Source: Gaeumannomyces sp. JS-464
Lineage: Eukaryota; Ascomycota; Sordariomycetes; Magnaporthales; Magnaporthaceae
Length of the DNA: 22,275 nucleotides
Assembly: GCA_002197995.1 (NCBI GenBank)
Contig: NGZR01000019.1
Span: forward strand, 1-22,275
Direction: 5' to 3'
Part shown: positions 1 through 22,275 of the stretch, one piece after another
Layout: every line of letters starts with the position of its first letter
Numbering within the stretch: the stretch's first letter is position 1
Made by a program: the position numbers and the translations under genes
Notes under the pieces: model-generated
Seen by the model: only the letters and a program-made list of their open reading frames with translations
Database searches by the model: none
What the model was told of the DNA's origin: nothing

Positions 1-242
1 TAGTAGTGTGTAAGTGTGTGAGTCCGTAGTGTGTGTAGGGTACGAAAAGTGTCGTGTAGTAAAAAGTGTGTGTGTAAAAAGTGTAGTACGTGAGGCGTGT
101 CACAAGTAGTGTGTGTGAGTGTGCAGGTAGTGTCGGTACACGTGTGTCGTAGAGTAGTAGTGTGAGTAAAGAGTAGTAAGTAGTAGTAAAAAAGAAGTGT
201 CGTAGTAGTGTGTACACGTAAAGAGTAGTGTAGGTAAGGTAG
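1..242 (+). CDS. Fold-back copy of GIY-YIG frame tail
   Basis: Collapsed plus strand from base 1 repeats the minus strand of 5072-4833, beginning TATATTTAATTTGATCC and passing through AATTATACTGAGG to the same KDISK and TAG. It lacks one A in a run compared with the right arm. It is the same gene read a second time. Confidence 0.88.
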
Positions 243-454
243 GGTGTAGTGTGTCCGTGTGTGTGTAGGTGCGAAGCGTAACGTGTCAGTACAGAAGGTA
301 GGTAAGTGTAGTGTGTAGTGTAGGTGTAGAGACAAGTGTAGTAGTAGTGTGTGGTGTAGAGTGTAGTAGTGGTGTACAGTAAGTGTAAGTCGTGTGTAGG
401 GGTAGGGAGTGGGTGGCGCGAAGTAAGTGTGGTCGTCAAAGACAAACCGCGTGT

Positions 455-945
455 CAGTAAGTAAGTGAAAAGTAAGTGTAGTGAAGTGTGTGTAAGGTGT
501 GTAAGTGTGCGTGACGTGTGTCGTAACGTGTCGTACAGGTAAAAAAAGTGTAGAAGTGAAGTAAACCAAAACCGTGAAGTAGTAGAGGTGTAGAACGTAC
601 GAGGTGTGTAAGGTAGGTAAGTGTAGTAGTAGTGTAGGTAGAAGTAGTCGTGTGAAAAGGTAGTCCGTGTGTGTAGTGTGTGTCGTAGGTAAAGTAGTGT
701 GTAAAGTGTAGTAAAGAGTGTGAAGTAAAGGTAGTGTGGTCGTGTAGTGTGTGTGAAACGTAAAAAGTCAGACAGAACCGTGAAGTCGTAGTGTAACGTA
801 AGCGTGTAGTAGGTGGAAAGTGTAAGTCGCAAAGTGAAGTAAGTAAAAGAACAGAAGTGTGTAAGTGTGAGAACAGTGTGTAAAGTAGTGTGTGTGTAGT
901 AACGTGTAGTACAAAGTAAAAGTAGTAGGTCCCAACAAGTAGTGG
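455..945 (+). pseudogene. Fold-back copy of truncated LAGLIDADG frame
   Basis: Collapsed plus strand repeats the frame at 4085-4590, including the shared ATAGTCCCAACAATATGGAG end at about 917-945. The stretch 243-454 corresponds to 4600-4830 and likewise shows no gene. Between 946 and 1074 lies the copied 3' end of intron 7. Confidence 0.85.
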
Positions 946-1074
946 AGACAGTAGTGTGAGGTAGTCGTACCGTGTAAACAAGTGTGTGTGGTGTGTAGTG
1001 AGGGTGTAAAAGTAGTGTAACCAGTGAGACCGTAGGTCGTAGGTAGAGTCAAGAAGTGTAAGTGTGTAGTGTGG

Positions 1075-1199
1075 GGGTAGTAACAAGTGGGTACGTGTAC
1101 GTGAGTAGAAAGTGTGTGTAAGTACGTGTCAGTGTCGTGTGTGAAACAGCGTGGGGTGTGGGTGAGTCCGTAGTAGTGTAGTGTCCAACAGTCGTGTGT
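1075..1199 (+). CDS. cox1: Fold-back copy of cox1 exon (GITMVLTDR..QHL)
   Basis: This is the same exon as 3861-3977, read on the plus strand after GT is collapsed to T: GGTATAACAATGGTACTTAC onward through AATACTTCATTC and CCAACATCTTT. It sits in the left arm of the inverted duplication. It is useful for correcting the right-arm copy because their indels differ. It is not an independent gene. Confidence 0.92.
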
Positions 1200-1269
1200 C
1201 GTGTAAGTAAAACAAACGTGTGCAGTGTAGTAGTGTAGTGTGTAGTGTACAAGTAACGTAGGTCGTGTA

Positions 1270-2410
1270 CAGTGTGTGTACGTGTGTAGTGGTACGTGGT
1301 GTGAGGTAGTAAGGCGGAGTAAGGTCCGTGTGTAACGTGTGTGAAGGTAGTGTGTGTAGTAAAGAAGTACGTGTGTAAAGTGTAGTAGTCCAGAGTAAAA
1401 AAGTGTACCGTAAGTGTCGTCGTCGTCGTAAAAAAAAAGTGTGTGTGTGTAGGTAGGTGAGGTGACGTGTAGTAGGAGTGTGTACGTGAAGGGGAAGGTG
1501 TCGTGTGTGTACAGGTAGCGTAAAAGAGGAGAGTTGTGTGTCGTGTGTGTGTGGTCAGAACGTCAAGTCAACGTACAAGTAGTAGAGTGTGGTGTGTAAA
1601 GTGTGTCAGTGTAAAGAGTAACGTGTAGGAGTGTGTGGTGTAAAGGTGTAGTGTAAACAAGTCGTAGTAAAAAAGTAAGTACGTCAGTAGAGTGTGTAGT
1701 AGGTCCAAGAGTAGTGTAAAAAGTGTGTAAGTAAGTGTAGTGTGTGGTAACGTGTAGTGTGTAAGTGGGTAAGTAGTGGTAGTGTGTCGTAACGTAGAAA
1801 GTGCGTAAAGTGTGTGTGTAGTAGTGTGTCGTGTGTCGTGCAGTGTAAGTGAAAAAGTGTAGTGTAAAAAAGTAACAGTGGAGAAAAGTAGTCGTGGTGT
1901 AGTAGAAAGCACAGGTAGTGTACCGTGTCGTGTGTAGAGTGAGTGCAGTGACGTAGTCGTGGGTAGTGTGTCAGAGTGGGTGAAGCAGTCAGTGTCACGT
2001 GGGTAGGTAGTCGTGTAGTCGTGAACCGTAGGTACAGGAGTAGTAGAGTGTGTAGAGTAGTAGTAGTGTAACGTGTAAAAAGTGAGAGTAGGTAAGTAAA
2101 CCGTACGTGTGGAAGTAGTAGTAAAGTAAGTGTGTAGTGTCGGAGAGTAAAGTGTGGGGCAAGTAGTGGTCCGTCAGTCAGTGAAGTCGTAAAGTAAGTG
2201 TGTGTAAGTAGTGTGTGAGGAACGTGTAGAGGTAAAGTGGGGGTAAAACAGTGTGTGGTGAAAAAAACGTCGTGTGTAAAGTAGTGTGTGTGAGTAAAGT
2301 GTGTCGTCCGTGTAAGTAGGTCAAAAGGGGTCGTGTAGGTGTAGTAAAAAAGTGAAAGGAAGGTCGTAGTGTAGTAAGTGTAAAAAAGTGGGTGAGTCAG
2401 TGTGTGGTAG
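1270..2410 (+). CDS. Fold-back copy of intron 8 LAGLIDADG endonuclease
   Basis: Collapsed plus strand carries the same protein as 2641-3850, with the first motif (GACTTATAGGATTTACTGAA) at about 1464-1500 and the stop TAG at 2410. The frame contains one of the two Ts lacking a preceding G (1535), in the run of five T (GATTTTTC) that the right arm also shows as five T. This confirms that the T itself is genuine. Confidence 0.88.
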
Positions 2411-2480
2411 CGTGTGCGCACAGAAAAAGAGTGTCGAAAGTAAAGGACGTGTAAGGTAAAAAGTAAAGTAAGTAAGTGGT

Positions 2481-2552
2481 CAGTAGTGTGTCAGTCGTCG
2501 TGTGTGTGTGTGTGTGTGTGGTAAGTGCGTGTGCGTAAAGTGTGCACAAAGT
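2481..2552. repeat. Turn-round (loop) of the inverted duplication
   Basis: The arms match up to roughly 2480 and from roughly 2553. Between them lie about 50 collapsed bases that do not pair, including a collapsed run of ten T on the plus strand (about 2500-2520) and the segment reading GCAATTTAGC on the minus strand. This could be a natural hairpin apex where replication or library synthesis snapped back, or read-through around a hairpin end. No gene is visible in it. Confidence 0.8.
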
Positions 2553-3860
2553 ACAGTGTAGTGTGTAGTGTAGTGTGTGTGTGTGTACGTGTAAGGTCCG
2601 TGTGTAGTGTCGAAGTCGTGTGTGTGTGTCGGTGCGCAAGCGTACAAAGTGAGTCACCAGTGTGTGTGTAAGTGTGTAGTAAGTAGACGTGTCCGTGTGT
2701 CAGTGTGTGTGTAGTAACGTAAGACCCGTGTGTGTGACGTAGTGTAAGGGGTAAAGTGTGTAGTCAAAAGTAGTGTGTAAAGAGGTGTGTGTGTCACAAA
2801 GTGTGTGTACCCCAGTGTGTACGTCAAGGTGTCGTCAAAGTAGTGTAAAGTGTAGTGTGTGTGTAGAGTGTCAGTGAGTGAGGACAGTAGTGTGCCCCAA
2901 CGTGTGTAGTCGTCCGAAGTAAAGTGTAGTGTGTAGTAGTAGTGTCCAAGTGGTAGGGTGTGTAGTGTACGTAGTCGTCAGTGTGTGTAAGGTGTAAGTA
3001 GTAGTAGTCGTAAAGTCGTAGTAGTCCGTGGTACGTAGGGTGTCAGAGTAAGAGTACGTACCAGGTGAAGTGAGTGCGTGTCACCAGTCGTGAAAGTACC
3101 AGAGTAGGTCAGTGCAGTCAGTCGTAAAGAAGGGTAAGTACGTGGTGCGTGTGTCGTAGTAACAGAGTAGTGTGTGTCGTCCAGTGGTGTAGTGTGTGTG
3201 TAAGTAAGTGTGTCAGTGTAAGTAGCAGAAAGAAAGTAGTGTAAAAAGTGTGTAGCAGTGTGTCGTAGGTGTAGAAAGTACCAGTAGTGTACCAGTGTAA
3301 AGTAAGGTGTACAAAGTAAGTGTAGTGTAAAGTGTGTGTAAGTAGTCGTGTGGACGTAGTAAAGTCGTAGTGAGGTAGTGTAGTGTGTGTGTGTAGTAGA
3401 GTGTGGGTGTAAGTAACGTGTGTACCAAAGTCCGTAAGGTGTAGTCGTGTGTAAGTGAAAGTGTGTAAACAAGTCGTAGTAGTCGTGGTAGGTGTGAGTG
3501 TGAGGTGTAGTGACAAAAGAAAAAGTCGTCCGTCGTGTGTGTAGCGTACGTGGTAAAAGAACCGTGTCCCCGTGTCAGGTAAAGTCCGTAGTAAGGTCAC
3601 GTCACGTCACGTAAAAAAAAGTGTGTGTGTGTGTGTGTAGAGAGAGAAGTGTAGGGTAAGTGTGTGTGTGTAGTCGTGGAGTAGTAAGTGTGTAAAGGTA
3701 GTGTCGTGTGTAAAAGTACGTGTCAAAGGTGTAAAGGACGTGTAGTCCGCCGTGTAGTACGTCAACAGGTACAGTAAAGGTAAAGTAAGTGGTAAGACGT
3801 AGGTGTAGTGTGGTAAGTAAAGTAAGTAGTAAGTGCAAGGTGTGGTGTGTGTAGTGTAAG
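2553..3860 (-). mobile_element. Intron 8, partial (after QHL-F of cox1)
   Basis: Inserted at the conserved HLF-WFFGHPEV junction. Only the 5' part is present: the endonuclease frame and about 50 collapsed bases beyond its stop. No P, Q, R or S box was found before the sequence folds back, so assignment to group I rests on the family of its endonuclease. Confidence 0.75.
2641..3850 (-). CDS. LAGLIDADG homing endonuclease (intron 8)
   Basis: Nearly continuous with the cox1 exon upstream. It opens with a hydrophobic stretch (IILFITITSLTLFTLC, then EYKADKSFNFE). First motif WLIGFTEGEGSFTVA at about 3541-3600, then KRGDFSFVITQST, NFIKDNLGFG, SIKNNTHRFIVQDIKNL, FNGNMVFLTR. Second motif DAWLSGISDGEASFT at about 3061-3120, then TGYRFRY and a tail ending KEVYYKLKNGDHL with TAG at 2641. 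Both motifs have acidic residues. The small differences between this and the left-arm copy are homopolymer errors. Confidence 0.92.
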
Positions 3861-3977
3861 AAAGAGTGGTGTGGAAGTAAGTAGTAGGAGTCACACCACC
3901 AGCGTGGTGTGTCAAAGAAGTGAAGGTAGTGTAAAAGTGTGTCGTAGTCAGGTAAGGTACCAGTGTGGTGTAGTACC
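3861..3977 (-). CDS. cox1: cox1 exon (GITMVLTDRNFNTSFFE..QHL)
   Basis: Collapsed it encodes GITMVLTDRNFNTSFFETA, then GG(G)DPILFQHL(F). Joined to the previous exon it gives LAGGITMVLTDR, the active-centre region of cox1. One base is missing within the triple Gly run here (GGTGGTGTGATCC). The fold-back copy at 1075-1199 has a different error at the same place (GGGTTGGTGATCC), so this is a read error and not a mutation. The exon ends within CATCTTT, ahead of the WFFGHPEV part, which lies outside the unique sequence of the window. Confidence 0.94.
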
Positions 3978-4084
3978 CAAAGTAAAGTGTAAGTGTCGTG
4001 TGAGTCGTACGTAGACGTAGGGTCGTCAGTGGGTGTAAGTAGTGTGTGTAACCGTCAGTAAACAAAAGTGTGGTGTGTAAGGGT

Positions 4085-4590
4085 AGAGTACGTCAAGTAG
4101 TGGTCGTCCAGTAGTGTGGTGTGGGACGTAGTAGTGTGTGTAGTGTGTGGTAGTAAGGTGTAGTAAAAACGTAGTGTGTAAAGTGGTGTCGTCAAGTGTA
4201 AAGTGTCGTGGTGTCGTGTGTGTGTAGTGTCAGTGTGTGCGAGTGTGTAAGTGTGTCCACGTAGTAGCGTGTGTAAGTAGAGTGTCAGGGTGTCGTGGTC
4301 GTGAGTGTGTGTAGGTGTGTCAAAAGTAAGACAAGTACGTGTGTGTAGTGTCAAGTCGTGTGTAGTAAGTGTGTAAAGTAGTGTGTACGTAGAAAAGTAA
4401 AGGAGTACGTGTGTGTCAAGAGTAGTGTCGTACGTAAGTAGTAGTAAGTGTACGTACGTGTAAACGTCGGTAGGTGTCGTAACGTCGTAGTAGTGTCAGG
4501 GTGTGTGGGTGTGTGTCAGTGTCGTAAGTGTGTCGTGTGTGTACGTGGTAGAAGGTGTAGAAAGGTCAGCAAGTGTAAACGTGTAGAAAG
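4085..4590 (-). pseudogene. C-terminal half of a LAGLIDADG endonuclease (intron 7, third frame)
   Basis: Reads FLSLIADFLTSTVKEIRMKT, KPEYRVRTTSLSSNYI, LVEYLEKYPLFSSKYLNYKD, then SDRTLESIKAI and SQMNKKRTEFNWEHLNSFYN. These are the blocks that follow the second motif in this family. Neither LAGLIDADG motif can be found upstream (4600-4830), so the frame is truncated at the 5' end, possibly where the GIY-YIG unit inserted or recombined. The same is seen in the left-arm copy, so the truncation is not a read error. Confidence 0.82.
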
Positions 4591-4832
4591 TGTCAGTAAG
4601 TGTAGTGTGTCAGTGTAGTGTAGTGAGCGGGTGTGGTCGTGTGTGAGACAAGTGTAGTGTCGCCCACCAGTCCCGTACCCGTAAAGAGTGTAAGTGTAGT
4701 GGTAACAGTAGTAAGTGTAGTCGTCGTAACAAAGTAGTAGTAAGTGTGGTCGTCGTAACGTAAGTAAAGTAAGTGTACGTACGTGTCGTGGTAGTGAAGG
4801 TGTAGCGTGTCGCACGTAAAAAGGAAAGTAAC

Positions 4833-5775
4833 CGTACGTGTACGTAAGTAGTCGTGTGTAGGTGGTAAAGTAGTAGAAGTGTCGTGTGTGTGTAGTAGTA
4901 GTGTAGTAGTCGTGTGTAGTCAAGTAGTAGTCGTAGAAAGGTGGTACGAAGTACGTGCAAGTCAAAAGTAGTGTGGTGAAGCCGTCAGGTAGTAAGTGTG
5001 TGTAAAAAGTGTGTGTAGTAAGAAGTGTGTGTCGGTACCGTAAAAGTAGGAGTCAAAGTGTGTAAAGTAGTAAAGTACGTGTGTGTCGTGCGTAGTGTGT
5101 GGTGTAAACCAAGTGTGTGTGTAGGTGTGTAGGTAGTCAGTCGTGAAGTGGTAAGTGTGTCCGTAGTGTGTAAGAGTGTACGTGTGTGTGTGTAGGTGTG
5201 TAGGTGTGTCGTGTCGTGGTAGTGAAAGTGTGTACGTAAACAGTAGGAGTGTAGTGTGTCAGTGTAAGTGTGTGTGGCGTGTGTGTGTGTAAAGTGTGTA
5301 GCGTAGTGTGGTGAGTAGCGTGAAGTGGTGTGTAAAACCGTAAGTAAAGAGTCCGTGCAGGTGTCGTGAAAAGTAGTGTAGTAGTGTCAGGGGTGTGTAG
5401 AAGAGTCAAGTAGTAAAAGTGTGGTGTCGTCGTACGTGTAGTGTAGTAAGTAGTCGTGTGTAGCGTGTCACGTGTGTAGGTGTAAAGTCGTGTGTACAGT
5501 GTAACGGTAGTGTCAAGAAGTAGGTGTAAAGAAAAGCGTGAAGTGGTCCAGTAGGTGAAGGTAACGCAGTGTACAGTAGTGTCGTACGTAGTGTAGGTGG
5601 TGTACGGTGGTGTAAAGTGTAGCGTGTGTAGAAGTAAGTAAGTAGTGTGTAAACCGGTCGTAGTAGTAAAGTGTGTGTCGTGAGTGAGCCGTACAGTACA
5701 GTGTGTGTAGTGTAGTGTCGTAAAGTGGTGTGTAAGTAGAGTAGTAGTACCGTGAGTGTGTAGTCGTGTAGTGTA
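4833..5775 (-). CDS. GIY-YIG homing endonuclease with NUMOD repeats (intron 7, second frame)
   Basis: Starts near SGIYLLKHLENNKMYVGSSE at about 5650-5755 (GIY and YVG), then NLYRRFKYYYSKANLTRN, CNALLHYGHSAFSLTILEYV, and ISREQFYIDL at about 5401-5440, where the catalytic Glu is in the usual place. LNPEYNIFRTAGSLLG and GFKHSAITIAKFK follow, then an NPMFSK NUMOD3-type piece and a NUMOD1-type tail (FDCSIRTLSRYIDKNI) ending KDISK, with TAG at 4833. All the family landmarks are present in order. The right part (4833-5072) is repeated in the left arm. Confidence 0.93.
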
Positions 5776-5941
5776 GTCAGTCGTAAGTAGTGAGTGTGGT
5801 GTGTGTGTCGTAACAAGTGCGGTGTAGGTAGTAGTAGTAACAGAGTGAAACAAAGTAGAGTGTGTGAGTGTGTAGTGTGTAAAGTGTAGTCAGTGTAAGT
5901 AAGTGTAAACGGTGGTAGTGTGTAAGTAACGGTGCACGGTG

Positions 5942-5961
5942 CGGTAGGCGTCCGCCGTACG
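5942..5961. repeat. CGTAGGC-GGA-GCCTACG hairpin
   Basis: Perfect 7-bp stem with a 3-base loop after collapse. It sits in the short spacer between the LAGLIDADG and GIY-YIG frames of intron 7, next to a second small palindrome (ACGTGCACGT, about 5927-5940). Confidence 0.8.
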
Positions 5962-6084
5962 GGTACAGTGAAGAAAAGTGTGTGTCGTAGGTAAAAGTGT
6001 GTGAAGTGTAGTGTGTAGGTAAAGTGTAGTGTCGGTAAGTAGGTGTAAGTGTGTGTGTGTAGTGTAGTGTAAGGCCAAAAGTGT

Positions 6085-7315
6085 AGAACGTGTCGTAAGT
6101 GTGTGTGTAGGTAGTCACAAAGTAGTCAGTAAAAAGTGTAGTGTGTAAAGTGAGTGTGTCAAGTGTAAAGTGTCGTGGTGTCGTGTCGAGTAGTAGTGTC
6201 GTGTGTGTAAGGTGTAGTGTAACAGTAGTGTCGTAAAGTCGTAAAGTGTAGTCGTAACGTGTGTAAGTCCCGGTGTGTGTGTGTGTAGTGTAGAGTAGAG
6301 TCGTGTGTGTGTGTGTAAGTAGTCGTCGTAAGTAGTGTAAACCAAAAGTCCGTGAGAAGTCGTAAAGTAGTGTGTGTACAGAGAAAAGTAGGGAAGTAAG
6401 CGTAAAGTAGTGTAAGGTAAAAGTGTGTCAGTGTACGTGTGTGTAAGTGTGTGTGGTGGTGTGTGTAAGTAGAAAAAGTGTAAACCCGTGTGTAGAGTGG
6501 TGTGTGTACGTGTGGTGTGTAAAACGTAGTAAGTCAGGGTAGTGTGCGTAAGAAAGTGTGTGCAAGTAGTGTCGTGTCAGTCAAAGTGGTGTGTAGGTAG
6601 TGTGTGTCAAGTAGTCGTAAAAGTAGTGTAGTGTAAACAAAAAAGTCGACAAGTGTCAAAGTGTGTACAGTGTCGTAGTGTCGTGTGGAGTAGTGTGTAG
6701 AAGTCGTAAAGGTGTGTGTGTCGTGTACGTGAGAAAGTGACCAGTCGTGCAGTCGTAGAAACCCGTGCGTAAGTCAACAAGTGTAGAGGTGTGTAGTAGT
6801 GTGCGTCAGTAGTCGTGTAGTGTGTGTCGTGTGTGTCGTAGTACGTGTAAAGTCAGTAGTCGTGTGAAGTGTGTAAGTCAGGTCAAGTGTAAGTCGTAGT
6901 GGTAAAACAGTAAAGTGTGTGTAGGGGGTGTCGTCAGTAGTAACCAGTGTGTAGTAAGTGGTGGGGTGTAGTGTAGAAGTGTAGTACCGTGTCGTAAGTG
7001 TAGTGTAACGTGGTGTAAGTACAGTAAGCAGTGTAGAACCGTGTGTGTGTGTGTGTAGAAAGTAGAGTCCGGTGGCGTGTAAGTGTGTAGAGTGTGGTAA
7101 GTAGTGTAAAGCGTAAAGGAAAAGTCGTCGTGTGAAGTCGAAGTACGTAGTGTGTGGTAGTAGAAGGAGTAAGTAGTAAAGTCACCGTGTGTGGGGAGTC
7201 GTGTGTCGGGTGTGTGTAGGGTACGTAGTGTAGTAGGTACCAGTCGTCCGTGTCGAGTGTAAACCGGGTGTAAAGTAAGAGGCAAAGTCGTAAGTAGTCA
7301 AAGTGTCGTGTGTAG
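6085..7315 (-). CDS. LAGLIDADG homing endonuclease (intron 7, first frame)
   Basis: First motif RFASYLTGLIEGDGTIIVPK at about 7201-7295, then SPKGDLYYPSIQIVF, DFPLALILQSKL, GSNAYV, INGYMRTPKI (about 6905-6935) and YRLIDWLNSRYDL. Second motif CWLAGFLDADGHFSVR at about 6722-6775, then RIECKFEL, IANFLA, the YLD block and TEFNWNHLNNFYD (about 6121-6170). Both motifs keep acidic residues. This frame lies between R and the presumed S box, in the P8 loop position. Confidence 0.9.
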
Positions 7316-7596
7316 TGGTGTAGTGTAAAGACAAAGTCGTCGTGTGTCACGTACCCGGAGGGGTGGTAAAAGTAAGTCGTACGAGTCGTACGTGTGTGTA
7401 AAGTGTGTGTGTAAAACAGTACAAAGTGTGTGTGGCAGTAGTAGCCGTCGTGAAGAGTACGTGTAAGTAAGTAGTGGTAAGTGTAGGTGTAAGCAGTCCG
7501 TGCGTGAGTAAAGAGTAGTAAGTAAAGTAAAGTAGTAGTCGTGGTGTGTCCAGCAAGTGTAGCCAAAGTGTGTAAAGCGTGGCAGGTAGTGTGTGT

Positions 7597-7755
7597 ACCA
7601 GCGTAACACAGGGTAAGTGAGTAAGTAAGTAAGTAAGTACAGCGTGGTAAGTAACGTACAGCGTCAGTCCAAACAAGGCGTAGCGTGTAGTGGTAAGTCG
7701 TGTAGTACCGTGGAGGTGTCGTCAGTAGTGTGTACAAGTGTGGTGTGGTAAGTGA
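7597..7755 (-). CDS. cox1: cox1 exon (FITTIVNMRTPG..SLPVLAG)
   Basis: Collapsed it encodes FITTIVNMRTPGIRLHKL, ALFGWAVVITAVLLLL, SLPVLAG. The LHKLALFGWAV wording resembles basidiomycete cox1 more than ascomycete sequences (LHKLPLFVWAI), which is the main basis for the taxonomic guess. The exon ends GCTGGT. The following intron holds GCCAGC, which pairs with it and puts a U-G wobble at the splice site. Confidence 0.96.
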
Positions 7756-7980
7756 CACAGTGTGTAGTGTAACAGTAAGTAGTGTACGTAGTGTAGTGAG
7801 TGTGGACCAGTAGTCGTGTAAGCGCAGTCGAGTGTAAGTCGACACGGGTCGTAGTAACGGTAAGGCCGTCGTGAGGAGTCCGTACGTGTACAGGTAAGGA
7901 GTGTACGTGGTGTGTGTGGTGTGTCCGTGCGTGAGTGTGGTCCGTAAAGTAAAGTGTAAGTGCAAGTAAGACAGTAGTAA

Positions 7981-8065
7981 AGTAGTAGTAGTGTGTGTGT
8001 GTGTACAGTAGCCGTGTGACGGCGACGTGTACAAGGAGGTCGCCGTAGGCAGCCGGAGGCCGGGA
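7981..8065. repeat. GC-rich patch with GGCGACT..AGTCGCC hairpin
   Basis: Collapsed minus strand CCCGGCCTCCGGCTGCC is followed by GGCGACT, an 8-base loop and AGTCGCC: a 7-bp perfect stem in a strongly GC-rich patch of intron 6. It lies between the P-like and Q boxes, so it is either a peripheral ribozyme helix or an inserted GC cluster. Confidence 0.75.
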
Positions 8066-8184
8066 AAGTAGGAGTAGTGTCCAGCAGTAGTAGGTCAAAA
8101 GTGTGTAGTAGTCAACCGTCACGTACGTACGTAGTGTGTGTGTAAGTAGTAAAGTAAGTGTCGGTGTAGGTAGTAGGTAAACGT

Positions 8185-8206
8185 GTACGAAGGTACACGT
8201 GTCGGT
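8185..8206. repeat. TACGAAG-TG-TACTTCGTA palindrome
   Basis: Collapsed minus strand GCATACGAAGTGTACTTCGTAA contains the inverted pair TACGAAGT and ACTTCGTA. It lies between the GIY-YIG frame and the core of intron 6 and belongs to the same dispersed family as the short palindromes listed nearby. Confidence 0.7.
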
Positions 8207-8239
8207 AGTGCCGTACCGTACGGACGTAGCGTACGAGGG

Positions 8240-9540
8240 TAGTGCGTACGCCAAAAGTGTGTGTCGGTGTGGTGTGTGTACAAAGTAGTACCCACGAGTA
8301 AGGGTAGTAGTGTGTGGTGTCGTAGGTCGGTGTGTAACGTAAGGGTGTGCGTGTGAGAGACGTGGGTAGACCGTGTGACGTGTAAGAAGAACGTGTGTAC
8401 ACAGTGTGTACCGTAAACGTGTGTCAAAAACAAGTGTGTCAGTCGTCCACGTGTGTGTAAGTAGTGAGTGTAAGTAAGTACAGAGTACACGTAGTGTGTG
8501 TGCGTAAGTAGGGTGTAGGTGTCGTAGTGTAAACGTGTAACGTCGTGGTCGTGTGGTGTGGTAACAGTGTAGTAGCGTAGTGTGTCGTGGGTAAAGGTCA
8601 GTCGTCCGGTAACGTGTGGCAGGTAGTCCACCCGGTGTCCCGTGTAAAAAGTAAAGTAGTGTGTGTCCGTAGGGTAAGTAAGGTGTCCCGTGTACGTCAG
8701 GGTGGTGTGTAGGTAAACGGTAGGTAGTGAGTCAAGTAGTGTAAGGTGTGTAGAGTAGTAAAAGTCCGTGTGTGTGGTGTGGTAAAGGTAAAAGTAAAGA
8801 AGTAGAGTGTGTAGTCGTCGTAGTGTGGTACAGTAGTAGTAAAGGGTGTGTAGCGTCCAGAGTCCACGTAGGAGTGTAGTGTCGAAAGTGTGTGTGTAGT
8901 AGGTAGTGTGTAAAGTGTAAAAGAAGGGGTCCAAGTAAAGTAAGTAGTGTGCGTCGTAAAACAAGTCGTCGTGGGTGTGTAGTAGTCAGGAGTAAGTGAG
9001 GGTAAACAGTAGTGTACGTGTCGTAAGTCGTAAAACGTAGAGTAAACCGTGTGTGTGTCCGTGTAAGTGTAAAGGAAGTGTAACGTGTGTCCGTAGTACG
9101 TGTCGTAGTGGTGGTGTCCAGTGTGTAAAGTAACCCGTGTGTAAGTCGTAAAAGCCAACGTGGTGAAGAGTGAACCGTACAGTAGTGTGTGAGTGTGTGG
9201 TACCGTAGTAAGACGTAAAGAGTAGTAAAGTACCACGGTGTGGTGTGTAAGTGTGTACCAGTGAGGGTAAGCCGTAACGCCGTGTAGTCAAGTGTAAGTC
9301 GTGTCGTAGGTGTGTCGTAAGTGTGTAGTGGTAAAGTCAGTGTAAAGAGTGTAAGTCGTAGGCAGTAGTGTAAGTGTAAAGAAGGTGTAAGTGTGTGTGT
9401 CAGTGTAACGTAAAAGTACCGTGAGGTAAGCGTAAAAGTAGTGTAGTGTGTAAGTACCGTGTGTAAGGGTAACAGGGTGTGTACCACGTGTAAGTAGGTG
9501 TGAGCGTGTGTAGCGTAACGTGAGTGAACAGTAAACACGT
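8240..9540 (-). CDS. GIY-YIG homing endonuclease with long N-terminal extension (intron 6)
   Basis: The catalytic region reads RGIYIFSLIGTNQIYVGSSS at about 9170-9245: GIY, then YVG in place of YIG. It continues QLAFRLKGYL, GKLIPLIK, FRLEVICL, NPEIVLEQYYL and NPSGSGAKPLYMYN, with a C-terminal NUMOD-like DNA-binding part (ISKNSVSV, KSGDEIVFESLGKC, FLSQGLPVSQATL). Ahead of GIY is a well-read extension (VHQLAKAQLLSGKPVTLKVL, NNILAYSGILVNEKLTSLIN, DLHKLETRRLIDKALGLPHG) that I do not recognise. Single-base slips are present. The upstream start is uncertain. Confidence 0.88.
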
Positions 9541-9556
9541 AGTCGTCCGTGTGTAC

Positions 9557-9571
9557 GGTAGCGAAGCGTAC
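9557..9571. repeat. GTAGC-TTC-GCTAC palindrome
   Basis: A 5-bp stem with TTC loop after collapse. The same core (GCTTCGC, TACTTCGTA or the reverse, GCGAAGC) recurs across the introns at about 4805, 8190, 14740, 15035, 15480, 15620, 16845 and 18825. It marks a family of short dispersed GC palindromes. Confidence 0.7.
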
Positions 9572-9840
9572 GTAAAAGTAAAACCACAAGTCGTGAGTGT
9601 CGTGTGTAGTGTGTGAAGTCGTGTGTAGCCAGGTGTGTCGTGTGTCAAGGGTGCGGTAGGCGTGCACGTGAACACACCGTGTAGTGTACGTGTGTGGAGT
9701 GTCGCGTACGTAGTAGGTGTAGCGTGTGTGTAGGTAGTGTAAGCGTACCGTGTGTAGGTGAGGCGTGTCGTAGTCCGTGTGTAGGTAGCCCGTGTGTAGG
9801 ACGTAGGTAGGTAAGAAAACAACGTAGACGTGTGTAAGTG

Positions 9841-9866
9841 GTGGTAGCCCGTGTAGTGGGCGTACA
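9841..9866. repeat. Perfect hairpin (TGTAGCCC / GGGCTACA)
   Basis: Collapsed minus strand reads TGTAGCCC, loop ATAA, GGGCTACA: an 8-bp perfect stem near the start of intron 6. A related GGGCTACTA string lies just downstream (about 9781-9795). It is flanked by CGCTACGAAGTGCTCCGCT, another partly palindromic GC patch at about 9876-9900. Confidence 0.8.
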
Positions 9867-9956
9867 GGTGGTGTAAGTAGCGGAGCACGTGTCGGTAGCG
9901 GACACGGTGTGGTAAGTGTGTGTCAGTAAGTGTAAAAGTCGTAAGTAAAGTGTGTA

Positions 9957-10090: not shown

Positions 10091-10264
10091 CAAAGTGCGC
10101 GGTGTGAGTAACGTGTCAGTGTGTAGTGCGTGTGCGTGCGGTAACCAGCAAGCAGTAAAGTGGTGTAGTACGTCAAGTAAAGTGTGTCGTGTGTAGTGTG
10201 GTGTCGGACGTAGTACCAGTCAGTCCGTGTAAAGTCGTAAGTGTGTGTGTGTAGTGTGTCCAAG

Positions 10265-11884: not shown

Positions 11885-13010
11885 TACGTAGCGTGTGTGT
11901 ACGGTCGTACCGTAAGTGTGTAGGTAAGTAGGTGTGTAGTGTGTAGTGTGTAAGTGTACGTGTGTAGTCGAGTAGTGTAGGTCGTGTGTCGAGTAAGTAA
12001 GTGGTGCCACAGAGTCAGTAACGTGTAAAGTGTCAGAGAGTGTGTCAGTACCACGGAACGTGTACCGTGTGTAAAGTAGTAGTCAAGTAAGTAGTGTGGT
12101 GTAAGTGGTCCCGTAGAAGTGTACCGTGGTAGAGTAAGTACAGTGAAGTAGTGTGTCGTAGCGTGTGTAGTGTAGTAAGTGTAACAGTGTACGTGTGTGT
12201 AAGTAGTGGTAAAGGTACGGTGTGTAAGTAAGAAACAAGTAAGAAGTGTGTAGTCGTAAGTGTGTGTGTGGACAAGTAGGTAAAAGTCGTAGTACGAACG
12301 TGTGACGTGTGGAGTAAACAGTAAACACCAAAAGTGCCCGTGTCAGCGTGTCGTAGTAAACCCCGCGTAAGTCAAGTAAACAGAGTAGTAACAGGTAGCA
12401 AGTACGTAGTGTAGTGAGTCACGTGTGTCGTGCGGTGTGTAAAGTGGCGTAAGCAGGAGAAAGTAGTAAGTGTAGCGTGGAAGGTGTCGTGTGTGTGAGT
12501 CGTGTAAGTGTGTGTGTCGTAGTCAGTAGTCAGTGTGTGTAAGTCGTCGTAGGTGTAAGTGTCGTGTGTAGTGTGTGTCGTAAGTAGTAGTGTGGTAGTG
12601 CGTGTCGTGTGTAAGTGTGTGTAAAGTAAGTGTAGTAGTGTACGTAGAGTAAGTAAAGGAGTAGTCGTAGTCAAAAAGTAGGAAAAAGTGTACGTGTCGT
12701 GTGTGTAAAACCGTGTGTCGTAGTCGTGTAAGTGTCGTAAAGTGTACCGTCAACGTGTGTGGTGTGTGTGAACGTGTGTGTAGAAACACGTACCAGTAAC
12801 CGTAAGTGTGTGTGTAACAGTAAGTGTGTGTGTGTAAAGCAACCGTGTAAAGTGTAGTAGTGTCAGAGTGTGACGTGTAAACGTAGTAGTGTGAAGACGG
12901 AAGTGGTACCGTCCAGAGTGTGTGACAAGTACGTAAAACAACCAGTCACCAGTCGTGGTAAAGTCCCACGTAAGTCACAAGTGTGTAAACGTGTGTGTCG
13001 TCCAGTCACG
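11885..13010 (-). CDS. LAGLIDADG homing endonuclease (intron 5, first frame)
   Basis: First motif LWLVGFTDGDGCFSIVKSGG at about 12901-12975, then LSQSEYNLRV, LGYGSVS, EVIFPIFDKYPLLSSKYNYL, and PANYISPAW at about 12440-12475. Second motif YWLAGFIEAEGHFGVY at about 12310-12385, then a tail with FRGMKSLNLSYDLW. This is the WLVGFTDGDG/FIEAEGSF family common in fungal mitochondrial introns. Several A-run slips are present. Ends are approximate. Confidence 0.9.
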
Positions 13011-13143
13011 TGTAAAGTGTAGTGTGAAGTGTGTAGTGTGTGTGTAGTAGTGTGTGTCGGTGTGTGTCACGCAGTCGAGGAGAGGTGTGTGTAGTGTGCC
13101 GTCGTAGTGGTGTACCAGTAAAGCAACGTCCGTGTACACGTCA

Positions 13144-13161
13144 AGAGGTGTCAACCGTGGT
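13144..13161 (-). CDS. cox1: cox1 micro-exon, 14 nt (TGWTL)
   Basis: Collapsed bases ACAGGTTGAACTCT encode T-G-W-T-(L), joining EGGVG upstream to YPPLSG downstream in the order required by cox1. Trp is again TGA. The upstream intron ends ..AAAATG. The downstream intron contains AAGGAGT, complementary to the exon end ACTCT with a U-G pair, so the cut after ACTCT is supported and Leu is completed by the T of the next exon. Group I introns with neighbouring insertion sites in conserved cox1 stretches are common, but an exon this short is notable. Confidence 0.88.
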
Positions 13162-13200
13162 CAGTGTGTGTGTGTGTGTAGTGTAACCCAGTGCGGTAGC

Positions 13201-13233
13201 AGGGTCCAGACAGTAAGGTCGTGTGTGGACCGT
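13201..13233. repeat. Hairpin near the intron 4 3' splice site
   Basis: Collapsed minus strand AGGTCC..AGAC, loop TTAT, GTCT..GGACCT forms a stem of about ten pairs with one bulge. It is 40 collapsed bases or fewer upstream of the micro-exon, so it may be part of the P9 region that positions the 3' splice site. Confidence 0.7.
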
Positions 13234-13284
13234 GGGGTCGGTAGGAGTGTAAGTGTGTAACCGTAGTCGTCAGTGTCAGTGTGC

Positions 13285-14620
13285 GTAACCCCAAGTGTAC
13301 AGTGTAAAGTAGTAAAACGTGTAGTGTGTAAGTGAAGTCGTCAAGTGTAAAGTGTGAGGTGTCGTGTGTGTAGGTAGTGTCAGTGCGTAGTGTGTGTAGT
13401 GGAAAGGTAACGTGTAGAAGGTACCGTGTCGTGTGAGGTCAGTAGTGTAGTGTGTCGAGAAAGTGTGTGTGAGTAAGAGTAGTGCGTGTGAGTGGTCAAG
13501 TCGTAAGAAAGTCGTGTGAGTGTGTAGAGCGTAAAGTAACGGAGTGTGTGTGTGTAAAGTAAGTGTGTAGTGTAAAAGTGTGTCACAAGAACGTAGTGTC
13601 GTGTAAGTGTGCGTGTGTGTACAACAGTAAGCGTGGTGTGTCAAGTAGTAAGTGTGTGTCGTGTGTAAGTCCGTGTGTGTGTAGTGTGTCAGTGTGTACA
13701 GGTGTGTGTGTAGTGGTCGTAGAAAGTGTCGTGTGAAGTACGTGTGTGTCAGTAAAAGTGTGTAAAGTGTAGAAGTGTAGTGTGTGTGTAAGTGTGTGGT
13801 CCGAAGTGTAGCGTGTGTGGTAGTAAGTGTGGTGTGTCGTGGTGAGTAGTAGCCAGTAGTAACAGTGTGTAACCGTGTAGGTAGCGTAAACCACGTGTGC
13901 AGTGTGTAAAGTCAAACCCACAAGTAAAAAGTGACCAGTCGGCGTGTCAAGTAAAACCGGCGTAAGTCAAGGAGTGTGGGTGTGTCGTAAGTGAGCGTAG
14001 AAGTCCACACCGTAAGTGTGTGTGTCGTAGTGTGTGTAAGTGGGTGTCCAGTAGGTAAGCGTGTGTGCAGTGTACGGTAAGCGTAGAGTGAGTGTGTAGC
14101 AGTGTCAAGTCAGGTCAAGTGTAGGTCGAGTAGTAAAGCGTGTCAAGTCGTGTAGGAGGTGTCGTCAGTAGTGTGTCCAGTGTCAACAGGTACAGCGTAG
14201 TGTGTGTCGGTAGTAGAAGTGTGTAAAGTCGTGTGGAAGTAAAAGAAGTCACAGTAAGTGTGTGAAGTGTCGTGTGTGGAGTGGTGTCCAAAGGTCCCGT
14301 CCGTCCGAGTAACCGTCGTGTGTGTAGTGTGTGTAAGAGCGTAAAGGGAGAGTCCGTGTGTGTGTCACAAACACGAGTGTGTGTGTACGTAGTGGGAGTA
14401 AAGCAAGTGTGTACCCGTGTGTGTGAGTGTGTCGTAGCGTGGTGTGTGTAGGACAACGTAGTAGAGTCCAGTCGTCCGTGTCGTAGTGTAAACCGTGCGT
14501 AAAGTAACGTACCGTAAGTAGACGACGTAGTGTAAAGTAAAGTGTAGTGTAGTGTGTGGGTAAGGGTGTAGAGTGTGGAGAAAAGGGAGAGTAGTACACA
14601 GTAAGTAGTAAGAGTGTCAC
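13285..14620 (-). CDS. LAGLIDADG homing endonuclease (intron 4)
   Basis: First motif LGSYLAGLIEGDGS at about 14461-14525, then PKTARNQKGK, YPIVKIVFVKKDLPLA, INSIRKIAVLLNGNMRTPKI (14110-14200) and EALYRLIDWLN. Second motif NPWLAGFIEADGHFY at about 13925-13975, then DLNASGLATKVK and ISQKQLYKANS, QEGTSKLL, and NTKRTQFNWDSLNK at about 13325-13365. Both motifs keep their acidic residues. The C-terminus is not exactly fixed because of indels. It belongs to the same broad family as the intron 7 frame (IEGDG, then NxKRTxFNWxxLN tail). Confidence 0.92.
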
Positions 14621-15108
14621 CGTGGTCGTGTACGTGTAGTAGTAAGTGCGTAGTGTCGTGTAGTGTAAGTGTCGCGTGTGTGTGTACAAAAGAGAGTGTG
14701 GACGTAGTAGTGTGTGTCACGTCACCGTAGTGGTACGAAGGGGTGCGTGTCGCGTAGGAGTGAGGTGGTACCACGGTGGTAGGTCGTCGTGAAGAGTAGT
14801 GTGCGTGTGGTGTAGTAGTACGTAACGTGCGTGTGTGCGTGTGCAAGTAGTGTCCGTGCGTGAGTGTGTGTCCGTGTAAAGTGTGTGTGTGTAGTGAAGG
14901 AGACAAGTAGTCAGTGTGAAGAGTAGTAGGAGGTGTCCCAGCAAGTGTGTAGGTGGGTAGTACGTGTGTAGTAGGTAAGTAAGTGTGTGTCGTAAGTGTA
15001 GGTGTAAAACGTAGGTCCGTGTAAAAAGTAAGTGTAGCGAAGCGTAGAAAGCAACGTCGTGTAAGTAAACGTAAGTGTACGTAGTGTGTGTGGCACAGGG
15101 TGTGTGGT

Positions 15109-15225
15109 ACCAACGTCCGTCCGTGTCGTAGTACAAGCAGAAAAGTACGTAAGTAGGTAGTGTAAACGTAGGGGGTAAGTAAGTCAAAAACGTAAGTGGT
15201 GTAGTGTGTAGGTCGTGTGGAAAGT
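15109..15225 (-). CDS. cox1: cox1 exon (FPRLNNISFW..EGGVG)
   Basis: Collapsed, it encodes FPRLNNISFWLLPPS, then LILLVFSACIEGGVG, with no frameshift. The Trp of ISFW is written TGA, which fixes the genetic code as mould mitochondrial. The exon ends at GGT. The following intron bases can form a P1 helix (GGTACA with TGTGCC) placing a U-G wobble at the exon end, the standard group I 5' splice signal. The upstream end (intron ..AAACG, exon ATTTCC) completes the Ala codon of DMAFPR. Confidence 0.95.
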
Positions 15226-17047
15226 CGGTGTGTACAAGTGGGTAGGTGTGTCCGTACCACCACGGACGTAGTGGTCGTGTCACCCGTGTAGTGTGTAAGT
15301 ACAAGTAAGGGGCGTGTCGCAGTGGTAGGTCGTCGTGAGGAGTCCGTGCGTCAGTAAGTGTGTAAAGTGTAGTGTGTGGGTGTCCCGTGCACAGTGTAGT
15401 GTCCCAGTGGTAGTACAGTAAGGTGGTGTACGACGTAAGTGTCAGGTGTAGTGTGTGGTGGTGCGTGCGTGCGTGTCGCAGCAAGCGTAAAGCGTACAAC
15501 GTGTGTAGTGAGGTGTGTAGGTGTGTGGTAAACCCCAAGTGTAGGGTGGTCGTAGTGGTAGTCGTGGTGTAAGTAGGAAAAGTGTAAGTGTCCAGTGTGT
15601 CGAGAGTAGTGTCGTAGTGCAGTAGTAGCGAAGGTAAGTAAGTGTAAAAAGCGTGTACACGTGTGTGTGTAACGGCAGTGTGTCCGTGTGGTGTGTAGTG
15701 GGGCGTAGTAGTAAAAAGTAACAGTAAAAGTAAAGTGTAGGTAAGAAGTGTGGTAAAGTGTGTAAGTAGACGTCCGTCCGTCCGTCCGTGAGTAAGTGTG
15801 TAGTGTGTAAAGTGAGTCCCAAGTGTGAAAGTAAGGTGTCGTAGTGTGTCGTAGTGTCAGTACCAGTCGTCGTAACAGAAGTCAGGTGTGTGTAAGTGTA
15901 AACCGTGTCGTGTCGTGGTAGTAAGTGGTGTGTGGTGTGTCAAGCAGTGTAAGTAACACAAGTGTGTCGTCGTGTCAAGTCGTGTGTAGTAAGTCGTAAA
16001 GTGGTGTGTACGTGTGAGAAGTAAAGAAGTAGTCGTAGTCGTAAAGTAGTGTGTACCAAAAGTGTGTCAGGTAGAAGTGTGTGTGTACGTGTGAGTGCGT
16101 GGTAAGAAGTAGTAAGTACGTCAGTGTAGTGTGGTAGAGTGTGTCGTGAAGTGTCGTAGGTGTAAGTAAACGTACAAGTGTAAGAAAGTGTGTAGCGTAG
16201 TAGTGTGGGTGTAAAACAGTCGTAAAGTAACGTCGTGTACCAGGTGTACAGGAGTCGTAACAGTGTCGTCGTGCGTCAAGTGTCGTGTAAGTCGTACAAG
16301 AGTAGTGTGTGTGTCGTGTGTGTGTGTGTGTGCAGTAGTGTGTGTCGTACGTGTGTAGGTACGGTGTGCACAGAAAAACGTGTCCAGTCGTGAAGTCAAG
16401 TAAAGTCCACGTGTAAGTCAGCGTAGTCAGTGTAGCGTAAAGGTACCGTGTCGTGTGTGTAAAAGGTGACGTGTAGTCGTAGTAGTGTAGGTAGTGTAGT
16501 GAGTGGTGTGTAGTGTGTAAGTCAAGTCAAGTCAAGTGTGTAGTACAAGTGTGAGTGGTAGTCGTGTAGGGTGGTGTCGTGTAAGTGTCACCAGTGTGTA
16601 GTGTAAAGTAAACGTAGTGTGTCGTGTGTAAACCGTAGTGTACAGGGTGAAAGTGTACGTAAGTACACAAGCAGTGTAGTCGTGTGTAGGGTGTGTAGTA
16701 GTCGTAAGTAAAACCAGAGTGTCGTAGTGTAGTAGTCGTAAGTAGGTGTGTGTGTGTGGCGTAAGTGGGTGTCAGTGTGTGTGTGTAAACGTAAAAGGTG
16801 TAGTACAAAACCGTAGGGGTGTAGTGGTGTCGTGTGTGTGTAGTGCGAAGCACCCCCAGTCAGAAGTGTGTGTGGTAGTGTCAAAGTAGTGCCCAGTCAC
16901 CGTGTCAAAGTAAGCCAGCGTAGAGTAGTGAAGTGTGTAAGGTGTAGTGTAGTGTGTGTGTAACAGTGTGTGGTACGTAGTAAGTAGTCGTGTTGTGTAG
17001 TGTGTAGTGTAGTACCCCAAAGGGTGGGCCGTGTGTGTGTCGTGTGT
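15226..17047 (-). mobile_element. Group I intron with LAGLIDADG frame (intron 3)
   Basis: Interrupts the DMAFPR codons of cox1. Core boxes: R box GGATCCTCAGAGACTACATG at 15322-15349 and S box AAGACATAGTCCG at 15264-15280; 3' end ..AAACG. At its 5' end AGGCCCACC pairs perfectly with nine bases of the upstream exon region (GGTGGGCCT). Downstream of the frame are several GC-rich palindromes (about 15480-15640). One endonuclease frame precedes the R box. Confidence 0.88.
15770..16975 (-). CDS. LAGLIDADG homing endonuclease (intron 3)
   Basis: First motif SYLAGLFEGDGHIWIQNS at about 16861-16930. Then NEPLAKKLLDIIESGFIRYK, DNACVLVISPVIGLK, INGELRTPKIHQLYKLIDW. Second motif DSWLSGFIDSDGSFSVQRTK at about 16345-16420. 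Then LDPVTGKSYLDVLT, KYLDRYSLFSSKHLDYKDW, and a terminal RTYFNWDHLNKLSGGG. Order and wording match the widespread fungal cox1 intron maturase family with a GDGHI first motif. Acidic residues are present in both motifs. One T of the window-wide exceptions (16994) lies just upstream. Confidence 0.93.
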
Positions 17048-20215: not shown

Positions 20216-20404
20216 GGTGTACGTGTGTGTAAGGTGTACCGTGTGTGTGGAGTGTCGTGTAGTCCGTGTAAGCGTCGTAAAGGTAGGTGTAGACCGTAAC
20301 GGTAGTCGTGAGTAAAAGTAGTCAGTCAGTAAGTCAACGTGTGTCGCCGTGCGTGAGTGTAGTGTCGAAGTGTAGCAGCGTGAAGTAGTGTAGTGTAAGG
20401 TGTG

Positions 20405-21560
20405 TAGAGTCGTGTAAAGTGTGTGTAGTCGTGAGTGTAAGTGTCCGTGTCGTGAGGTGTAAAGTGAACGTCGTAGAAGTGTAACGTGTGTAAGTGTAAA
20501 AGTAGTCGTGTGTCAGTAGTGTAAAGTAAGTGAAGTAGTGTGTGTGTAGTAACCGTAGTGTAAGCCAGTAGTGTGTAGTCGAAAGTGAGGGTAGTAAGTG
20601 TGTGTGTCACGTAAGAGTCGTGTAAGTAGTGTACCGTAGTAGGTGGTAGGTAAACGTACGTGTGTGTGTGTAGTCGTGAACGTAGTAACGTGTAGTGTCG
20701 TGTCCGTGTGTAGTGTGGTCAAAAAGTGTGTAAGAAGTCAAAGTCAAGTGTAAAAAACGTGTGTCGTCGTGTGTGAGTGTGTAAGTCCGTAGTGTGGTGT
20801 AAACGAAGAGTGTGTACAGTAAGTGTAGGTGTGGTGTGGTGTCAAGTACGTGGCAGGTAAAGTGACCCGGTCGTCCAGTCGTAGTAAAGTCCGCGTGTAC
20901 GTCAGGTGGTGGAGTGTGTAGAGGTAGAAAGAGTGTAGTGTGTAGTGGTAGACAGACAGTAGTCGTAAGTGCAGAAAAGTGTGTAGGAAAAGCAGGTGTG
21001 TGTGTAAGCGTAGCAGGGTAAACCGTGTGTAGTGTCAAACCAGAGTCGTGTAAGTGAGTAGTGTGTGTGTGTAAGTAAACCGTGTCGTGTCAGGTGTAAA
21101 GTGGTGTCCGTGTAGTGTGTGTGTGTAGTCAAAAAGTACACGTAGTCGTGTGTGTCAAAGTGTGTGAAAAGTCGTAGTGGAGTGTGTCGCACGTGTGTGA
21201 AGGTGGAGTAGTGCGTCAAAAGTGCGGGTAGTAACGTACGTCCAAGTGTAGTAGTCCGTGTCAAGTGTGTAGAGTAGTGTCGTGGTAGTCGTGTGCAGGT
21301 AGTGTACCACGTAAGTCGGTGACGTGAACCAGCACCACCAAAAAAGAGTGTGAAGTGTGTGTAGTAAAGGTAGTAGTCAAGTAGTCAGCAAGTAGTGCAA
21401 GTGTGTAAGTCAGTAAAGTCGTGTGCAGCAACACGTGTCAAGTGTCGTGTAGTGTACGGTAAGGTGTGTGAGAGTAGTCGTAAAGTGTAAAACAACCGTG
21501 TCAGCGGTCAGGTAAACCCCGGTGTACAGTAGGTGGGGTGTCAGTACCCGTGTCACAGTG
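20405..21560 (-). CDS. LAGLIDADG homing endonuclease (intron 2, first frame)
   Basis: Two-motif LAGLIDADG endonuclease/maturase, which cuts intronless alleles and may assist splicing. First motif GFTDAEGCFNL at about 21496-21521, followed by VAARFMIKLHIADIDIL and YKIQSFFGGAGSVTISGN, then ARYRISKLKDIIGVVIPHFE, a typical first-domain order. Second motif HWVSGFIDGDGSFTA at about 20860-20900, then LRLTIGLNQRE. It is broken by several one-base slips, nearly all in A or T runs (for example after HFE and in the KNKEHLTEEG tail), which look like read errors. TGA reads Trp. N-terminus not determined. Confidence 0.88.
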
Positions 21561-21731
21561 TGTGTGTGGTGGTGAGGTAGAAAAGTGTGTGTCGGTGTGT
21601 GTGGGGCCCGTAGTGTGTGTGTGTGTACGGTAAGTAAAGTGTGTAAAGTGTAGTGTGTGTGTAGTCAGTGTAGTCCGTCGGAGTAGTGTAAAGGTGTGAA
21701 AAAGGTGTGTGTGTGTGTGTGTGTGTCGTGT

Positions 21732-21766
21732 ACCAAAGTCCACCGTAGTGTAAGTGCGTGGCAGTA
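21732..21766 (-). CDS. cox1: cox1 exon (VMPALIGGFG)
   Basis: Cytochrome c oxidase subunit 1, the haem-copper core subunit of respiratory complex IV in the inner mitochondrial membrane. Collapsed, this short exon reads (G)T ATG CCA GCA TTA ATA GGT GGA TTT GGT, giving VMPALIGGFG, an invariant stretch of the protein. It is only 28 collapsed bases long. The upstream intron ends in G (..AAACG, then TATG) and the next intron starts after GGT, a usual group I site after a U. Earlier exons lie beyond the right edge of the window. The boundaries fit the phase of the following exon, which begins with Asn (GGFG-N). Confidence 0.93.
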
Positions 21767-22275
21767 CGGTGTGTGTACCAGTGTGTAAGTGAAAAGTGTA
21801 AAGTGCGTGGACGTAGTAGTCGTGTGTAGTCGTGTGTAAGTGTAGTAAAGTGTGTAGTAAGTAGTAGTGTGGTAGTAGTGTGTACGTAAGAGTAGTGTGT
21901 CACGGTAGTAGGTCGTCGTGAGGAGTCCGTACGTAAAGTAAAAGGTGGTGTGTAAGTAAGTGCGTGCGTGTACGTGTCGGTACGTCCGGTACGTGTCGGT
22001 ACGTGTCGGTAGCGGCGTACCCGTGTGGTAAAAGGTAGCCAGTAACCAGCCCGTGTGTACCGGTGTGGGTGTGTCCGTGCGTGAGTGTGCCAAGTGTGTG
22101 TGTGAAAGTGGTGTACGTGGTAGTGTCGTGCCGTCGTGTGTGTGTGTGTGTGTAAGAAAGGTAGTGCAAGACGTAGGTGTCCAAAAACGTCGTGTAAAGG
22201 AGTGTCCAGCAAAGTAGGTGAAAGAAAGGTAAGAGTAGTGTGTCGTACCGTGTACCCGGCCAGTGCCAGTGTGTA
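21767..22275 (-). mobile_element. Group I intron core, partial (intron 1)
   Basis: All four core boxes of a group I ribozyme can be seen after collapse, in the right order on the minus strand: P box TTTGCTGGAATCC (about 22195-22215), Q box AATCAGCAGGAAACC (about 22060-22090), R box CCTCAGAGACTATACG (21901-21928) and S box AAGATATAGTCC (21809-21825). The intron ends ..AAAACG before the VMPALIGG exon. No endonuclease frame is visible in the part present; the 5' end is beyond the window. Between Q and R lies a short tandem array described separately. Confidence 0.88.
21961..22013 (-). repeat. Short tandem array of TACGAAG units
   Basis: Collapsed minus strand holds about four consecutive 7-base units of the form TACGAAG, one varied to TACGGAG, closing with CCGCTAC. 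It lies between the Q and R boxes of intron 1, in a peripheral loop. The unit is a half of the dispersed TACTTCGTA palindromes seen elsewhere in the window. Confidence 0.8.

Follow-up and report, generated by a model that had tools for sequence, protein, structure and literature searches.

An extra G before nearly every T of a likely mitochondrial contig, probably the product of a long-read base-calling fault

The window analysed here, a stretch of 22,275 nucleotides that is contig C11 entire, belongs to a eukaryotic assembly of 53.0 Mb in 34 contigs. Judged from its letters, it likely holds mitochondrial DNA with intron open reading frames (ORFs), likely from the cox1 region, written in a peculiar way: a G stands directly before nearly every T. 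By dinucleotide count, this is the case for 6129 of the 6132 T's written on the + strand (1..22275); AT and CT do not occur at all, and TT occurs twice. One of the three exceptions is the T at position 1, which has no base upstream. The two others are T's following a T, at positions 1535 and 16994 (+ strand), meaning that the inserted G is absent at 2 of 6131 internal T's. Seven normal pieces from other contigs of the assembly gave a corresponding share of 15 to 27%, and the runner-up among such pairs in the window, T before A, reached 39%. Collapsing GT to T leaves 16146 bases, so that the raw window is 38% longer than its collapsed text; the G+C content of the latter is 27% and its dinucleotide counts are ordinary.

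Pfam was run on 8 of the 11 ORFs of at least 100 amino acids that the collapsed text holds in genetic code 4, all on the minus strand: one matched COX1, two matched LAGLIDADG_1 above the cut-off, and five gave no match. The COX1 exon piece (7328..7781, minus strand, PF00115) scored 32.0 bits, just below the curated cut-off of 34.8, and the two LAGLIDADG_1 frames (PF00961), at 3330..3802 and 11959..12501 of the minus strand, scored 30.2 and 39.2 bits. In the raw window, Pfam found no match for the ten longest of 19 stop-to-stop ORFs (table 11), Rfam found no family and ARAGORN no transfer RNA (tRNA) gene. ARAGORN run on the collapsed window reported none with code 4, and four weak tRNA genes in mitochondrial mode. 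A LAGLIDADG-like motif occurred 9 times after the GT to T collapse, and was absent from the raw text and after five other collapses. The DNA is likely fungal, on account of code 4, of the intron-encoded LAGLIDADG proteins and of the internal transcribed spacer region. An earlier note, made from the letters of the window, had reported a G before T throughout with two internal exceptions, which the counts above confirm. It had held that protein matches in the raw rather than in the collapsed text would speak against its reading; the Pfam matches and the motif appeared only after collapse. Its “dozens of conserved protein blocks” go beyond what was verified, namely the COX1 and LAGLIDADG matches, and its ribozyme boxes were not confirmed, the raw text having given no Rfam family.

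The window is also a fold-back read. Aligned with its own reverse complement, the collapsed text is 94.9% identical over 3753 columns (collapsed positions 1-3681). This self-alignment delimits a left arm at 1..2480, and a right arm at 2546..5072 that is the reverse complement of the left. Between them lies a loop of 42 collapsed letters, at 2481..2545, ends approximate (all three on the + strand). The near-perfect inverted duplicate has an unfolded counterpart in another contig, C4, which reads straight through the fold site. The loop is T-rich, holds a T tract, obeys the rule, and does not match the genome as C4 reads it there. In both arms the G precedes T as written in the + direction. This means that the G was not in the duplex, as a duplex G would give an A followed by C in one of the arms. 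The same conclusion came from overlapping contigs. C22 matches the window at 96.9% over 7569 columns (collapsed 7795-15261), C4 at 96.6% over 4020 columns (collapsed 1864-5811), and both carry the rule on the opposite genomic strand; in the other contig pairs the rule strand agrees. The error therefore tracks the direction of reading, and not the genomic strand, in the fold-back arms as well as in C22 and C4. A second fold-back was seen in C7 (L015, collapsed 5319-7436; 95.1% over 2150 columns), both arms of which obey the rule, with a T-rich loop near the centre that does not continue the genome.

The two loops were compared with sequencing adapters, four adapter forms being tried with no correction. 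With the nanopore adapter, values of 0.006 and 0.006 were obtained on a mitochondrial background, a weak likeness short of a demonstrated match. The PacBio adapter gave 0.018 and 0.009, slightly weaker and likewise short of one. Against shuffles, both adapters gave 0.06-0.20 for the loops, and two bottom-strand adapter forms gave nothing.

The earlier note had also proposed to test other sequences of the data set for the same rule. Each contig was sampled, most being read in part only, and 33 yielded a readable sample; in C2 (144 kb), the 6000 sampled bases were all N. The rule was obeyed in 21 of the 33 readable contigs (C3-C9, C11, C13-C20, C22 and C25-C28), while the 12 others (C1, C10, C12, C21, C23, C24 and C29-C34) were normal where read. 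Affected contigs are 10-88 kb each and sum to 656 kb (1.2% of the assembly). The pieces sampled from the 9 contigs larger than 1 Mb were all normal. The form of the rule varies by contig: in some a G precedes T as written, in others a C follows A, as the rule reads on the opposite strand. Twenty sampled pieces, the window among them, obey it at more than 90% of their sites; together they hold 80 exceptions in 42878 sites, a few of these exceptions being mere piece ends. C9 is just under the 90% mark because the rule changes along its length. Local clusters of T without the extra G, in affected surroundings, were observed in C8 (L016 4035-4600) and C17 (L024 8032-9692).

Most of the affected contigs, 15 out of 21, look mitochondrial, by Pfam on collapsed ORFs, by tRNA genes, or by overlap. 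Pfam recognised COX1 in the window, COX3 in C3, COX2 in C26, NADH chain 6 in C9, LAGLIDADG proteins in C6 and C18, and a GIY-YIG protein in C4. C15 was assigned by its tRNA genes, and C7, C13, C14, C17, C20, C22 and C25 by overlap with contigs assigned by Pfam or tRNA genes. Among the other affected contigs, C16 and C19 are ribosomal DNA (rDNA) and C28 is nuclear, which leaves C5, C8 and C27 unassigned; one collapsed ORF of C8 had no Pfam match. With ARAGORN (code 4), the raw text of 18 loci, 16 of them affected and 2 not, gave no tRNA gene, and the collapsed text of 20 loci gave 21 tRNA genes in 5 loci (4, 5, 2, 9 and 1), one of the 21 being of no clear identity. The locus with nine (L022, C15) is a cluster seen only after AC was collapsed to A.

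Some of the affected DNA was also assembled clean. Once collapsed, the first 1500 bases of nuclear contig C28 align with C12, a normal nuclear contig, at 97% (7957058-7958311), and the last 700 collapsed bases of C28 do so at 98% (7965049-7965760), in the same order and 8.7 kb apart. Raw C28 reached only 78-80% with the same queries. An open frame of 817 amino acids in the C12 copy, truncated by the start of the locus, encodes WD40 repeats and a Utp12 domain; NCBIfam gave no match for the normal nuclear ORF. Likewise, the rDNA of C19, once collapsed, is 98% identical to that of the normal contig C10, compared to 72-78% for the raw copies of C16 and C19. The clean rDNA pieces L046 and L047 gave Rfam matches to the small subunit (SSU), large subunit (LSU) and 5.8S rRNAs; the four affected ones, L050-L053, gave none at all. 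The clean nuclear SSU rRNA gene also holds a group I intron (L047:1535-1822 of C10; RF00028, 57.6 bits, gathering threshold 50).

Clean copies were thus found in the same sample for C28 and for the rDNA of C19, and, in the readable assembly, not for two pieces of the window's own locus. The case at that locus rests on the opposite-direction copies, and for mitochondrial DNA at large on a clean stretch of C9. The start of the C9 sample is normal and matches collapsed C3, showing that mitochondrial DNA also occurs without the rule. Since it is the direction of writing that the rule tracks, and since two other affected loci have clean copies, we conclude that the G is not in the DNA.

C9 further showed a gradual onset. 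Between positions 10001 and 12900 (L017), in likely mitochondrial DNA, the text passes from normal to a full A to AC rule over about 2 kb. In successive 150-base bins, the A's with an extra C were 3/43, 1/36, 1/48, 2/44, 17/42, 16/42, 34/51 and 32/44 for bins 1-8, then 35/46, 53/63, 34/39, 32/39, 24/26, 36/39, 40/44 and 11/15 for bins 9-16, the last being partial. Any effect of sequence context on the insertion in this ramp is mild and follows no clear rule. The rule holds in full in those pieces of C3, C25 and C20 that overlap C9 here. Such a ramp could come from a consensus of normal and affected reads, or from a change within one read.

The step at which the G arose was approached through the errors in the rest of the text. 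Relative to the clean references, substitutions, insertions and deletions numbered 7, 14 and 67 over 2542 bases in C28, 1, 1 and 19 over 1467 bases and 10, 3 and 112 over 2352 bases in C19, and 4, 4 and 85 over 2356 bases in C16. Deletions fell in homopolymers in 61-74% of the cases, as expected of long-read errors. A lone native G was shortened at 27 of 420 sites where T came next and at 11 of 1143 where another base did (Fisher, 1e-8); for a real GG the figure was 10 of 329. The window compared with its opposite-direction copies gave a similar picture, with G shortened at 13 of 385 sites before T versus 3 of 571 (p 0.001). In addition, between same-direction contigs, the lengths of T runs, written (GT)n, disagreed 2-3 times as often as those of A runs for lengths 2-6 (126/396 versus 35/360 at length 3, 62/133 versus 24/137 at length 4). 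Runs of at least 7 showed no excess for T (13/19, versus 14/23 for A). The shortening of G before T and the noisy (GT)n runs imply that insertion and deletion noise acted on a string already holding the G. As this noise treats the inserted G as a real letter, the G likely arose at base calling.

The explanation that we favour, and consider probable, is that a long-read base-calling fault put a G before T in an ordinary, likely fungal mitochondrial contig. The feature very likely arose as an artefact while the sequence was being produced, and is no biological novelty. The fold-backs of the window and of C7, together with the deletion-type errors, suggest that the reads were nanopore reads. According to one survey, fold-backs make up about 0.55-0.6% of nanopore genomic reads and are virtually absent from PacBio HiFi reads, the latter figure coming from three PacBio samples only (PMC12870357). 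In our proposal, the base caller would have written G+T for each T in some of the reads, a minority of the total. Being longer, these reads would fail to align either with normal ones or with affected ones from the opposite strand, so that the assembler would stack them in separate, direction-specific contigs. Enough affected reads would coincide mainly in high-copy DNA, that is the mitochondrion and the rDNA, which would account for the mitochondrial look of most affected contigs and for the two that are rDNA; C28 shows that other nuclear DNA is hit as well. The central reading of the earlier note, inserted G's of technical origin masking a normal genome, is borne out.

Several observations weigh against a base-calling fault. 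More than 99.9% of the window's T's are hit while other bases err at 1-5%, which is hard to obtain as noise, and to our knowledge there is no described mechanism for a fault hitting nearly every T; C28 lacks the G at 9 of its 490 T's. In the nanopore signal, a run of T's gives a flat level, hence GTGTGT from TTTT is odd and not predicted; a pulse-by-pulse sequencer would ease this step. The loops match neither adapter clearly. As to the error pattern, G before T is shortened even more than a real GG (p 0.04), and losses slightly higher before T were also seen for A (10/354 versus 17/907) and for C (14/488 versus 20/1092). The rDNA copies have one common reference, and those sites are not independent. 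In opposite-direction pairs, a bias in mean T-run length between the GT-written and the A-written side is not clear. Finally, searches of the readable assembly with two 800-base pieces of the collapsed window, 5201-6000 and 13001-13800, gave no clean copy; a clean copy of this locus may lie in an unreadable stretch, or be missing.

A text edit of T to GT made on part of the read set (FASTQ or FASTA files) before assembly is possible, if rather unlikely. Assembly would then have given the two orientations, the mixed contigs and the exceptions. Such an edit accounts well for the near-determinism of the rule, with its 80 exceptions in 42878 sites, and for a G missing at so few internal T's of the window when the error rate of native bases is 1-5% in the other affected contigs. 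It would have to be confined to a subset of the reads, as two affected loci were also assembled clean. It sits badly with the error pattern: an edit made after base calling leaves G loss and (GT)n noise unchanged, unless the consensus step added noise, whereas native G was lost about 6 times more often before T than before other bases, and (GT)n units were noisier than A runs.

A modified or analogue thymidine, present in both strands of some DNA molecules and called as G+T, is very unlikely. It would hit T alone, and on both strands of each molecule, as observed, and the window's mitochondrial locus is indeed without a clean copy in the readable assembly. It agrees poorly with mitochondrial, rDNA and nuclear loci being hit alike while clean nuclear and rDNA copies exist, and with a rule that fades within one contig. 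The loop, which the genome does not match, also obeys the rule, and this would be unexplained if the loop is an adapter. We regard as highly improbable a further variant, in which thymine is fully modified on both strands of a share of the molecules, mitochondrial and nuclear, in some unknown way that comes and goes along a molecule, and is heard as two bases, the apparent base-calling fault being its signature.

A substitution of T by GT in the finished contig file is hardly credible. It has for it the regularity of the rule in the window. Such a substitution should leave no exceptions and no gradual onset; both were found, with the TT exceptions at 1535 and 16994, the exception clusters of C8 and C17 and the ramp of C9, and contigs written A to AC exist besides. 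The exceptions, the two orientations and the ramp refute it, short of later edits copying all of these. The earlier note had offered two causes, a text substitution and a fault specific to T at base calling, for example from a modified thymidine. The first, as an edit of the finished sequence, fails on these three points, and the second fits best. Modified thymidine as its source is unlikely, given the normal copies of two other affected loci and a 42-letter loop that obeys the rule. As for a G truly present in the DNA before each T and removed by deletional editing of the transcript, it is attractive only when the window is read on its own. We reject it as practically impossible, since one locus cannot carry the insertions on both strands, as the opposite-direction contigs and the fold-back arms would demand, and since the extra letters are missing from the clean copies of two other affected loci.

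Two further observations concern the normal contigs. A COX1 search of the assembly returned only two COX1-like pieces, both in normal nuclear contigs, at C31:2170651-2170854 and C33:374184-374543. Each holds an in-frame stop, one TGA and one TAG, TGA being no stop in code 4. These pieces are likely nuclear copies of mitochondrial DNA (NUMT-like). The starts of C1, C12, C24 and C32 (L009, L019, L033 and L039) share an A+T-rich sequence, 85-96% alike, which is likely subtelomeric.

Returning to base calling as the favoured source, the pattern is an unusual data fault and not a biological feature, and its extent is what matters: in one assembly, contigs of about 656 kb together (21 of the 33 readable ones) appear to hold false text, blank to Rfam, ARAGORN and Pfam until collapsed. 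Screening for the signature, a letter that on one strand or the other occurs almost always within a single dinucleotide, is trivial, and could flag such contigs before they are misread as novel genomes or codes. Should the fault prove to be a reproducible state of the base caller, it is a failure mode to add to assembly checks. Among the matches listed from open-licence PubMed Central (PMC) papers, none described a rule that turns T into GT whatever the sequence. When a conserved stretch of 16S was searched in its T to GT and its A to AC forms, neither gave a hit in genome_contigs (84,980 prokaryote species); being a search for exact matches at one site, it says little on rarity.

Known systems resemble parts of what we observed. 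In insertional and deletional RNA editing, the text of a cryptogene must lose or gain letters before it codes. The window is similar in that its text codes only after a letter change, and it differs in that its extra letter is on either strand depending on the contig and is absent from the clean copies of other loci. Thymidine analogues such as bromodeoxyuridine (BrdU) produce in nanopore reads an effect limited to T and in the direction of the read; unlike what we found, such analogues are not expected in mitochondrial, rDNA and nuclear loci alike, beside clean copies. The near-palindrome around a 42-letter loop, which C4 shows unfolded, resembles the fold-back read artefacts of the survey cited above (PMC12870357); such artefacts account for the palindrome and not for the T to GT rule. 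Nanopore base callers also make strand-specific errors in telomeric repeats, where most reads of one strand were more than 90% wrong and the others were not (Tan et al. 2022, PMC9414165). In the telomeric case, one repeat is called as another of similar current profile, whereas in the window one letter becomes GT in any context and the rest stays readable. What the two share are systematic wrong calls that depend on the direction of the read and extend over long stretches.

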